This document shows, one piece after another, positions 34,173 through 38,292 of a stretch of 64,000 nucleotides of DNA. Source of the DNA: Bacteroidota bacterium (lineage in GTDB: Bacteria > Bacteroidota > JABWAT01); the NCBI GenBank assembly GCA_013360915.1, contig JABWAT010000002.1, positions 508,098-572,097 on the forward strand, given 5' to 3'. Position 1 is the first letter of the stretch, and the number at the start of each line of letters is the position of its first letter. The notes beneath the pieces are model-generated. The model made no database searches and had not been told where the DNA came from. It saw nothing but the letters and a program-made list of their open reading frames with translations. The translations under genes and the position numbers were made by a program.

Positions 34173-36587
34173 ATGAAAATAATCTACAGCTGGTTAAGGG
34201 AATTTGTCGAATTTGACTGGACTCCTGAAGAACTTGCTTCCAGGCTGACACTGGCCGGATTGGAAGTAGAGGGAATTGAAAACCATTCACCCGGCTTTTC
34301 CGGTGTGATCACCGGTAAGGTACTTCACCGCGATAAGCACCCGAATGCCGATAAACTGAGTGTCTGCAGCGTGGACCTCGGCGATGGCTTGCCCGTCAGG
34401 ATTGTCTGCGGTGCTCCGAATGTACAGGCCGGTCAGATGGTTCCCGTTGCCGTACCCGGCTCAAAACTTCCCGGTGGTCTGTCCATCGGCAAAGCCACCA
34501 TCCGCGGAGTGGAATCCTCGGGAATGATCTGTTCCCGCTCAGAACTCGGACTTGAGGAAGGCAAATCACCCGGAATCTGGGTGTTGCCGGAAAACACTAA
34601 ACCGGGTCTCGATCTGGTGACCCTCCTGGGTTTAAAAACCGACTATGTGCTCGAAGTGGCCATTACCGCCAACCGCGGCGACTGTCTGAGCCATCTGGGA
34701 ATTGCACGCGAAGTATCGGCCCTGACCGGTAATCCGGTCCGGATCCCGGACACCCAGATTTCCCCCGACTTTTATCTGAAGGAAACCTCAGATCCGTACA
34801 TCAGCATAGAACTGGCCGCACCAGCTGCCTGCCCGGTCTATGTGGGCTGGTATCTCGATGGGGTCCGGCCGGTGGCCTCACCCGATTGGATGCAACGCCG
34901 ACTGCAGTTAATGGGACTGAGACCGCGTAATATTCTGGTGGATGCCACCAATTATGTGATGATGGAATGTGGACAGCCCCTTCATGCCTTCGACTACTCC
35001 ACGATCCAAAGCCGGAAAATCAAAGTATTTGAAACCGGGAAAACCCGTTTTACCACCCTTGATTCAAAGGAAAGGGAATTGCCGGACCGGGCCTTGATGA
35101 TTGGTGATGACTCCCGGGCCGTTGCACTGGCTGGTATTATGGGAGGTGAAAATTCGGAAGTGACCGATTCAACCCGGACCGTCCTGCTTGAATCAGCGTG
35201 GTTTCATCCGGCAAGCATCAGGCGCACCGCCAAACGATTAGGGGTTTCCACCGATAGCAGTTACCGCTTCGAACGTGGCATTGATACCCATCTTCAGGAA
35301 TATGCTGCCAAGCGTGCAGCCAAGCTGATGGTCGAAGTAACCGGCGGCAAATTGGCCCTGAAACCCGTGGTTGCCACCAGCCACCCTCCGGTTCAGAATG
35401 AACTGGTGGTCCGTTTTCAGCAGGTAAAACGAATTCTGGGAATTGAAATCCCGAAAGAGCGTATACACAGTATTCTCGAAAACCTTGGTTTCGTTCTCAT
35501 TGGTGAATCGGCTACGCAGATGATGGTCCGGATTCCCACCCATCGCCCCGACATTACCCGGGAGATCGATGTGATTGAGGAACTCATCAGGATCCATGGT
35601 TTTCAGCATATTCCCGAATCGGGGACCGTCACCACCTTCTTTAACAGTGAAACCTCCAAGGAACACGACCGGAATAACCGGATTAAGTTCATTCTTTGCG
35701 GGGCCGGCTTTCAGGAAGTGATATGCAATTCGATGATTTCCCGTCCCGAATCGGACCTGATTACCACGGATAGTGTGGAAATCCTGAACCCGCAAAGCGA
35801 GGATATGAAAACCCTCAGACCATCCATGATTCCGGGGTTGCTTCAGGTAATCCGGCGAAATCAGAACATGGGCGTACCCAATCTTCGACTGTTCGAATTC
35901 GGCAGAACTTTTCTGAAAACAGAATCGGATCGTTATAAACGGTTACCCGGATATACCGAAAACCGCATTCTGGCCATTGCGCTGACGGGTGATTTTCTGG
36001 AACAGAACTGGAATCAACCGGTTCGTAAATCATCCTTCTTTGACCTGAAATCGGTTGTGATGTCGGTAACCGGCCTTTGGCACCTTCAACAGTCCCTTCA
36101 GGCTGAGCCACAGGCCGATTCGGTTTATTCGAATGGAATGGTCTTACTTGCCAATGGGAAAAGAGTGGCATCGTTGGGCGAGCTTCGACCAGAACTCACC
36201 GGATTCTATGACTGCCGGAACCCGGTTTATGTGGCAGAAATCTATCTGGATCTGCTGGATGATCTTTCTCGACTCACACCCCGATACCGTGAATTACCCC
36301 GGTTCCTTCCTGTTGAAAAAGATCTGGCCTTCTGGGTGGATAAAACGGTCCCGGCCGACAAACTGATCGCCACAATCCGCGAAAGTGAACGAGACTGGAT
36401 TCAGGATGTCAGGGTTTTTGATGTGTTTGAAGCAAAAGGGGAAAATTCCGGCCGGCGGTCGGTTGCCTTCCGCATCACACTTCAGAACCTGGACCGGACA
36501 TTTACCGACGAAGACATCAACGCCTGGATCCAAAAGGTTAAAAAGGGAATGGAAACGGCACATCAGGCCGAACTGAGGGGTGTATGA
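34173..36587 (+). CDS. pheT: Phenylalanyl-tRNA synthetase beta subunit
   Basis: 804 residues. Domains in order: B1, tRNA-binding OB fold (about 40-150, VCGAPNVQAGQMVPVAVPG), B3/B4 editing domain, B5 helix-turn-helix-like domain, the class II-like core and the C-terminal ferredoxin-fold anticodon-binding domain. ATG 34173 starts MKIIYSWLREFV, typical of PheT; the open frame upstream lies within pheS. Its stop overlaps the next start (ATGA). Confidence 0.96.
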   Translation: MKIIYSWLREFVEFDWTPEELASRLTLAGLEVEGIENHSPGFSGVITGKVLHRDKHPNADKLSVCSVDLGDGLPVRIVCGAPNVQAGQMVPVAVPGSKLPGGLSIGKATIRGVESSGMICSRSELGLEEGKSPGIWVLPENTKPGLDLVTLLGLKTDYVLEVAITANRGDCLSHLGIAREVSALTGNPVRIPDTQISPDFYLKETSDPYISIELAAPAACPVYVGWYLDGVRPVASPDWMQRRLQLMGLRPRNILVDATNYVMMECGQPLHAFDYSTIQSRKIKVFETGKTRFTTLDSKERELPDRALMIGDDSRAVALAGIMGGENSEVTDSTRTVLLESAWFHPASIRRTAKRLGVSTDSSYRFERGIDTHLQEYAAKRAAKLMVEVTGGKLALKPVVATSHPPVQNELVVRFQQVKRILGIEIPKERIHSILENLGFVLIGESATQMMVRIPTHRPDITREIDVIEELIRIHGFQHIPESGTVTTFFNSETSKEHDRNNRIKFILCGAGFQEVICNSMISRPESDLITTDSVEILNPQSEDMKTLRPSMIPGLLQVIRRNQNMGVPNLRLFEFGRTFLKTESDRYKRLPGYTENRILAIALTGDFLEQNWNQPVRKSSFFDLKSVVMSVTGLWHLQQSLQAEPQADSVYSNGMVLLANGKRVASLGELRPELTGFYDCRNPVYVAEIYLDLLDDLSRLTPRYRELPRFLPVEKDLAFWVDKTVPADKLIATIRESERDWIQDVRVFDVFEAKGENSGRRSVAFRITLQNLDRTFTDEDINAWIQKVKKGMETAHQAELRGV

Positions 36588-36850
36588 TTGAGCTGGAAAA
36601 CCTTCGTAAACTATGGGATCATCTCTATCAGATCGAGCAGCGGCTTCAGCAAAAATCGGCTGAAATTGAACGGCTCACCCACCTGAACATGCAGCTGGAA
36701 GAAAAACTGCGTGCCAAGGAATCCGATCTGAGCCAGGCCCGAATGTTATTTGAGTCGAGTCAGCAAAGCTTTCAGACCGAAAAGCAGGAAATTGAAAGTC
36801 AGGTGAAATCCCTGATCAACCGAATCGATCAGCTTACCGGAGAGAAATGA
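36584..36850 (+). CDS. Short coiled-coil protein preceding zapA
   Basis: Not recognised by specific motif. 88 residues, almost entirely one predicted coiled coil with regular hydrophobic spacing (LWDHLYQIEQRL, IERLTHLNMQLEEKL, IESQVKSLINRIDQL), no membrane segment. It overlaps pheT and zapA by four bases each. Size and architecture resemble the division protein ZapB, which works with ZapA in enterobacteria, but homology is not shown. Confidence 0.75.
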   Translation: MIELENLRKLWDHLYQIEQRLQQKSAEIERLTHLNMQLEEKLRAKESDLSQARMLFESSQQSFQTEKQEIESQVKSLINRIDQLTGEK

Positions 36851-37131
36851 CGATGGAAACGGTGAAAGTGAGAATTTTCGATACGGAATATACCCTGAAA
36901 GGGGATGATCCGGCGTTGATTTACCGGTGTGCCGAGCAGGTTGACCGGTTGATGAATGAGCTTCACAAGGGAAGAAGTGACCGTCCGGTTCTTGCTCTGG
37001 CGATTTTAACGGCCCTCAACCTGGCAGAGTCACTGGAAGCCGAACGGAAGAAATCGGCAGATCCGGATGGATTTGCTCAGAGCGAAGTAACCCGGATGAT
37101 TGACTTTACCGATAAGTTGTTACAATCCTGA
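36847..37131 (+). CDS. zapA: Cell-division protein ZapA
   Basis: FtsZ-ring stabiliser, 94 residues. The N-terminal fold VKVRIFDTEYTLKGDDP and the following helix (AEQVDRLMNELHK, LAILTALNLAESL) are typical of ZapA. ATG 36847 overlaps the preceding stop; ATG 36853 is an alternative. The position between pheT and a structured RNA matches the common pheT-zapA-ssrS arrangement. Confidence 0.9.
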   Translation: MTMETVKVRIFDTEYTLKGDDPALIYRCAEQVDRLMNELHKGRSDRPVLALAILTALNLAESLEAERKKSADPDGFAQSEVTRMIDFTDKLLQS

Positions 37132-37145
37132 TTTTTTACGATAAT
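37117..37145 (+). promoter_or_regulatory. Candidate promoter of the zapA-downstream RNA
   Basis: TTGTTA (37117-37122), 17 bases, then GATAAT (37140-37145). This is a good fit to the general sigma-70 pattern, with an expected start near 37152, where the RNA's closing stem begins. The upstream element lies inside the end of zapA. It does not match the TAnnTTTG pattern of the other promoters. Confidence 0.4.
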
Positions 37146-37151
37146 AGAAAA

Positions 37152-37396
37152 GTCCGCACCTGCTATTGGCCACGAGATAATAAGAATCTGACAATTTATT
37201 GTCTGCAGGGGTCACCGTTCTGTTCATGTAATGCAGGCCTCAACCGTCTGACGGTTTCGTTTCACCGGATGCCTTAAGTGGCTGGAACCGGCGGCAAAAA
37301 ACGAACAGTGGAAGCAAGAAGTGAAAAGGCCGATCCCACCGTGTCATGAAATGAGATTCTTCATTTCCTCTCAATAGCAGTGTTGCGGCGCTTTTT
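37152..37396 (+). ncRNA. ssrS: Structured RNA downstream of zapA, candidate 6S RNA
   Basis: The 264-base gap after zapA has no gene. Its ends pair into a long closing stem: 37154-37158 with 37384-37388, and nine perfect pairs 37160-37168 with 37372-37380. A T run (37392-37397) follows, so the RNA is read on the plus strand. Internal hairpins are at 37190-37203, 37242-37256 and 37348-37367. A GCCTTAAG-containing segment at 37271-37278 recalls 6S RNA. zapA-ssrS adjacency is widely conserved. At about 240 bases it is longer than E. coli 6S (184), so the assignment is likely but unproven. Confidence 0.5.
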
Positions 37397-38292
37397 TAAT
37401 GTCCCGAAATCACCTTCAGATGTTTTTCCAGAATACCCACCGAAATTTCTCTGGCGCTTCTTGTGATAATTTCACCATCTGCATGAATGGTCAGATCCTC
37501 GGGACTCCAGATTTTACCATCAGCCGTTAACAATCTTTTCACTTCCGGTTCACCCAGATGGGTTCCCTTGATGACTTTGGGAAAGATGTTAAAAACGCGG
37601 TTTTTCCTGACATCAGATATGATTGTCGTGTGGAAAAGTCCGTCATCAATCAGGGCACCCGGTGTGAGATGAAAAATGCCTCCTGCATGGGTCCCGTTTC
37701 CAAACGTCATCAGAAACAACGGAAAGTGCATGTCCTGACCGCTGGCAGATAGCCGGATGGTGGGTTCCCGGTAGGTGACCAGAGTGGTCATCACGGAAAG
37801 CACGTAAGAAAATTTCCCGAGATATTTTATCCGGTTTGCCCGTGCTGCAACCAGGGCATCAAACCCGATTCCGATGTTATTGACGAAATACCGCCTGGCA
37901 GAATTGGTTTCTACCAACCCCACATCGACTGCCTTCACTTCATAACGGAACAACTGATCGAGCGCAGTCAGCGGATTGGCCGGATCCATCCGGAGCATTT
38001 TAATAAAATCGTTACCGGTTCCGCATGGAATGACTCCGAACCGGACAGGCAGATCCCATATACCATTTAATACTTCATTCACCGTGCCATCACCGCCAAC
38101 CGCAATGATAACCTCTGCTTCAGCCGCGGCCTTCCTGGCCAGGTGAGTGGCTTCTCCGGTTGCTGACGTATATAAAAAGGTGGATTGCAGGCCTCTTTGA
38201 CGGGCATCTGCTTCAAGAAGCTGACCGTAGGCTTTCCCTTTTCCTGAACCGGCATTGGGATTAACGATAAAGGCAAGTTTCGATCCCGTCAT
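37396..38292 (-). CDS. Diacylglycerol/lipid kinase family protein (YegS/DgkB-like)
   Basis: Phosphorylates a lipid such as diacylglycerol or phosphatidylglycerol at the membrane face. 298 residues. The N-terminal catalytic domain has VNPNAGSGKG and the nucleotide-binding signature GGDGTVNEV, then PCGTGNDF. The C-terminal beta-sandwich domain follows. The stop codon overlaps the T run that ends the opposing RNA. Its start overlaps the U32 gene stop by four bases. Confidence 0.88.
   Translation of the reverse strand: MTGSKLAFIVNPNAGSGKGKAYGQLLEADARQRGLQSTFLYTSATGEATHLARKAAAEAEVIIAVGGDGTVNEVLNGIWDLPVRFGVIPCGTGNDFIKMLRMDPANPLTALDQLFRYEVKAVDVGLVETNSARRYFVNNIGIGFDALVAARANRIKYLGKFSYVLSVMTTLVTYREPTIRLSASGQDMHFPLFLMTFGNGTHAGGIFHLTPGALIDDGLFHTTIISDVRKNRVFNIFPKVIKGTHLGEPEVKRLLTADGKIWSPEDLTIHADGEIITRSAREISVGILEKHLKVISGH

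Follow-up and report, generated by a model that had tools for sequence, protein, structure and literature searches.

6S RNA is thought to park RNA polymerase as growth slows. In the E. coli K-12 annotation, its gene (ssrS) follows zapA, the same order as at the locus described here. One study describes the zapA-ssrS neighborhood in Proteobacteria and notes that ssrS annotation is inconsistent, conceivably through sequence divergence (PMC7641849). For Bacteroidetes, another report gives 6S-Flavo (RF01685) as a 6S-type RNA (PMC2864571, Table 1 and conclusions), and a third describes the detection by RNA sequencing of a 6S RNA in Bacteroides thetaiotaomicron, with evidence for product RNA (pRNA) (PMC7366714). 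A literature search returned no paper pairing "6S RNA" with "green sulfur bacteria," which is no proof of absence.

A 6S RNA gene downstream of zapA

The window analyzed here is a 64,000-nucleotide stretch of a Bacteroidota genome (GCA_013360915.1, contig JABWAT010000002.1). According to its open reading frame (ORF) list, zapA and a convergent YegS/DAGK-type lipid kinase gene are separated by 264 bases, the gap in which the initial annotation had placed a structured RNA. Sequence comparison identifies this gap as a 6S RNA gene, divergent in sequence and an ordinary member of its class at the usual zapA-adjacent place. As a whole, the evidence is best explained if the gap encodes the organism's single 6S RNA (ssrS), of ∼240 to 246 bases, and we regard this reading as nearly certain. 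The main features are as follows.

36847-37131, plus strand: zapA, the upstream neighbor (ORF; Pfam PF05164 [ZapA], 44.2 bits, E = 2.4e-11)
37152-37397, plus strand: predicted 6S RNA gene (full-length match at 37153-37389 to R1, a clade-built covariance model; full-length but weak match to RF00013)
37396-38292, minus strand: YegS/DAGK-type lipid kinase gene, ending at 37396 (ORF and Pfam)

Both ends of the RNA gene are estimates: it is taken to start ∼7 bases past the GATAAT hexamer and to stop at the T run. This analysis establishes homology, structure, position, single copy, and promoter conservation.

Homology searches

At gathering thresholds, an Rfam search of the whole window returned four tRNAs only, and 6S was not called. 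At relaxed thresholds, RF00013 (6S) was one of two Rfam matches in the region, aligning over its full length (model positions 1 to 187) to 37154-37392 on the plus strand with 12.2 bits (E = 6.3). The Rfam 6S check named in the initial annotation thus yielded a full-length match but a score below the gathering cutoff of 46.4 bits. We consider this match suggestive rather than proof; Rfam by itself decides nothing here. For the four loci of the window's family (L001 to L004), 6S was absent from the Rfam matches listed at an E value of ≤10.

Relatives behaved similarly. RF00013 matched in 18 of 60 genomes at an E value of ≤10, with one above the cutoff (G038, 47.1 bits), and in 61 of 296 genomes at an E value of ≤0.1, with none above it. 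G015 came near the cutoff (42.3 bits) and G006 scored 38.3 bits; the matches in G038, G015, G006, and G031 lie directly 3' of zapA. Because nearly all relatives also missed the cutoff, we attribute the window's low score to a limitation of RF00013 for this clade rather than to the RNA itself. Matches in G004 and G030 (contig 52) and a second match in G011 were treated as chance (E = 2.7 to 8.6). Identity with 6S-Flavo was likewise rejected, as RF01685 had no match in the window's genome (G000) at an E value of ≤10, was unlisted for the window region, and gave chance-level matches in two of the three family relatives.

The covariance model R1 draws on 14 RNAs of other families of the same phylum, with none from the window's family. 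R1 matched the window at 37153-37389 on the plus strand along its entire length (1 to 221 of 221; 86.3 bits, E = 5.3e-21), its sole match there at an E value of ≤10, and the next best match across the whole genome scored 10.9 bits (E = 4.8). A model built from relatives, as the initial annotation had proposed as a check, recovers the window RNA in full. The training set includes the G038 sequence; because this member passes the RF00013 cutoff, the group as a whole is taken to be 6S, and the window has full-length homology to a sequence that Rfam itself accepts.

The initial annotation had allowed for either a divergent 6S RNA or another RNA class. The zapA locus might carry a different structured RNA that took the place of 6S and resembles it in rod shape only, and the window's RF00013 score, far under the cutoff, and its length beyond the 183 bases of the E. 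coli RNA would fit such a replacement. We consider this very unlikely, since sequences of the same alignable group reach the RF00013 cutoff (G038) or approach it (G015) across the full model and carry the window's conserved elements, and R1 finds no better 6S candidate elsewhere in the genome. These shared full-length RF00013 matches largely refute a separate class, and none is needed. Nor does the size of ∼240 bases, earlier regarded as large for 6S, set the window apart from its clade, where the RNA spans 196 to 262 bases in the 22 stretches measured, out of 23 tried, from the window, its family, and relatives (L021 did not match the measuring motif, and its coordinates were entered by hand; L044, L045, and L034 were printed only at this step).

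In a draw of genomes from the phylum, R1 matched 84 of 148 at an E value of ≤0.01, at one place each; this count includes training genomes, and its lowest three matches (E = 0.0015 to 0.0098) may be chance. Loci L035 to L037 gave no R1 match. On E. coli, the best of 52 R1 matches, all at chance level, falls inside ssrS but scores just 3.7 bits (E = 0.25); the group is therefore connected to E. coli 6S through intermediates. The Rfam 6S cutoff passes over almost all 6S-like genes in this part of the phylum, genes of the kind that the clade-built model retrieves. This is of use for annotation and is not surprising biology.

Structure and covariation

The predicted RNA forms a long rod, with the following elements.

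37154-37168, plus strand: closing stem, 5' side, pairing within 37372-37388
37182-37189, plus strand: helix P2, 5' side (AAGAATCT), pairing with 37354-37361 (AGATTCTT)
37190-37207, plus strand: central bubble, 5' side, flanked by P2 and P3 and unpaired in the family consensus
37208-37213, plus strand: helix P3 (GGGGTC), pairing with 37332-37337 (GATCCC); covarying
37223-37239, plus strand: helices P4 and P5, 5' side, with the conserved TGCAGGCC element; pairing within 37310-37325
37240-37309, plus strand: apical arm, variable in length and sequence among families, with a CCTTAAGTGG hairpin in the window's family
37307-37319, plus strand: conserved CAGTGGAAGCAAG element on the 3' side of the apical arm
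37338-37353, plus strand: central bubble, 3' side, by family consensus
37372-37397, plus strand: closing stem, 3' side, with the T run at 37392-37397

The paired ends described in the initial annotation, of 5 and 9 bp, were both located (37154-37158 with 37384-37388 and 37160-37168 with 37372-37380). Within the window's 5' bubble strand, 37190-37203 could form a small GACAA/TTGTC hairpin that is not kept in other family members. Blocks common to the window and its relatives are CCGCACC, AAGAAYC, GGG, TGCAGGCCTC, TGGAAGCA, CCCACCGTG, GRTTCTT, and GCGG. In named genomes, the pattern TGCAGGCCTCA-N40-70-CAGTGGAAGCA was found at six loci, all in metagenome-assembled genomes titled Bacteroidetes/Bacteroidota, Kapaibacterium, Chlorobiaceae, or Ignavibacteriae.

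Folding of the single sequence gave z = -2.24 on the plus strand (5 of 200 shuffles as good) and z = -1.95 on the opposite strand, so the strands are poorly separated. That the RNA lies far beyond chance follows from comparison with relatives, not from this fold. On the 14 training sequences, the R1 structure (27 pairs) is 96.0% paired, and 10 of the 27 pairs changed on both sides versus 4.0 when shuffled (0 of 500 as high), a count that excludes two lone pairs (columns 241-260 and 286-291). Its covariation score of 0.289, versus 0.154 when shuffled (0 of 500 reach this), loses at least two thirds of its value on sliding; because the structure was derived from the same alignment, part of this covariation arises by construction. 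Helices derived from the window were 75.9% paired on 18 sequences (17 distinct), with a covariation score of 0.231 versus 0.138 (0 of 500) and 18 pairs changed on both sides versus 13.5 in shuffles (11 of 500 reach this).

The initial annotation held that a closing stem lacking compensatory changes among relatives would speak against the RNA. Within the window's family (four sequences, of which two do not differ in this region), one closing-stem pair changes from A-U to G-C, and P3 and P4 also covary. Compensatory changes thus accompany the long rod, with its closing stem, its central bubble, and its apical arm. Between families, the outer 9-bp stem aligns only weakly: in the 18 sequences, 48.8% of its cells are paired, and the alignment there is poor.

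Promoter and 3' end

Two further elements flank the RNA.

37117-37145, plus strand: probable promoter, TTGTTA (37117-37122), a 17-base spacer, and GATAAT (37140-37145)
37392-37397, plus strand: T run, seen in the sequence

As the initial annotation had noted, the TTGTTA hexamer begins inside zapA. The pattern TTGYTA-N17-GATAWT keeps identical spacing in all four family genomes, with most spacer bases differing (spacers were counted by eye). Since the first hexamer sits in zapA codons, its own conservation is not independent evidence. A match to the promoter pattern is not special in itself, as a scan found 2 versus 0.9 (standard deviation, 1.0) in shuffles.

Regarding the terminator proposed earlier, the plus-strand T run is present, and a terminator scan of the region found no standard hairpin; the T run is preceded by the long-range closing stem of the RNA itself. 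On another reading, the gap has no function of its own and holds the 3' untranslated structure or the terminator of a neighboring gene, either zapA or the convergent lipid kinase. In favor of this reading, the stop codon of the kinase gene abuts the T run, and folding beats shuffled sequences by only a modest margin on either strand. The internal conserved elements, the helix covariation, and an R1 match far above terminator size nevertheless make this explanation exceedingly improbable, as does the change of downstream neighbor described below.

Genomic neighborhood in relatives

Among 41 genomes searched, zapA was found in 18. Of 29 loci searched, 18 were zapA loci, and in 17 of these R1 matched just downstream in the zapA orientation; 5 of the 17 matches come from training genomes, and that at L014 is partial. 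Together with the order in E. coli K-12 and the description for Proteobacteria (PMC7641849), this places the RNA in the usual 6S neighborhood. The single zapA locus without an R1 match was L010 (G017), where RNase Y occurs shortly after zapA on the same contig.

The gene following the RNA is the convergent lipid kinase in all four family genomes, whereas in 13 of 13 other-family loci examined it is a plus-strand frame resembling RNase Y, confirmed by TIGR03319 for G006 and G038. Because an RNase Y-like frame follows in these loci, the RNA is independent of its kinase neighbor, which argues further against a 3' structure of the kinase gene. TIGR03319 had no match in any of the four window-family genomes; in this family (L001 to L004), the lipid kinase stands in place of RNase Y behind the 6S gene. 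We also note a small coiled-coil ORF (36584-36850) between pheT and zapA that is ZapB-like by position; its Pfam ZapB score of 17.3 bits is below the cutoff of 31.5 and stands among many coiled-coil matches.

Proposed function

From homology, we infer that the window RNA is transcribed, binds polymerase, and serves in pRNA synthesis. A promoter of its own, where zapA ends, would drive transcription, which would finish at the closing stem and T run. The RNA folds into a long rod, and the bubble separating P2 from P3 resembles an open promoter. The housekeeping sigma-RNA polymerase would bind it when growth slows, as with 6S elsewhere, and release would occur when polymerase copies a short pRNA from the bubble. 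The pRNA template is likely the 5' bubble edge adjoining P2, near 37189, a placement that we take to hold by analogy with E. coli 6S. The apical arm, with its conserved internal loop formed by TGCAGGCCTC and CAGTGGAAGCAAG and the CCTTAAGTGG hairpin conserved in the window's family, might constitute a second functional domain beyond the promoter-mimicking bubble, such as a protein-binding site; we consider this unlikely. The previously unannotated gap is settled as a gene for a housekeeping regulatory RNA, a correct and ordinary finding.

Comparison with known 6S RNAs

Among described Bacteroidetes RNAs, 6S-Flavo is likewise 6S type (PMC2864571) but differs in that its model finds no counterpart in the window's genome. 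The B. thetaiotaomicron 6S RNA belongs to the same broad phylum (PMC7366714). Relative to E. coli ssrS, the window RNA is ∼55 bases longer, has its own clade's conserved TGCAGGCCTC and CAGTGGAAGCAAG blocks, and is not followed by fau; relative to RF00013, it differs in scoring far below the family's cutoff. In other respects, it resembles both: it immediately follows zapA in the same orientation, aligns to the full-length model, and shares the closing stem and central bubble, and, as in RF00013, a conserved GC..GCC/GGAAGC element lies near the apical arm.
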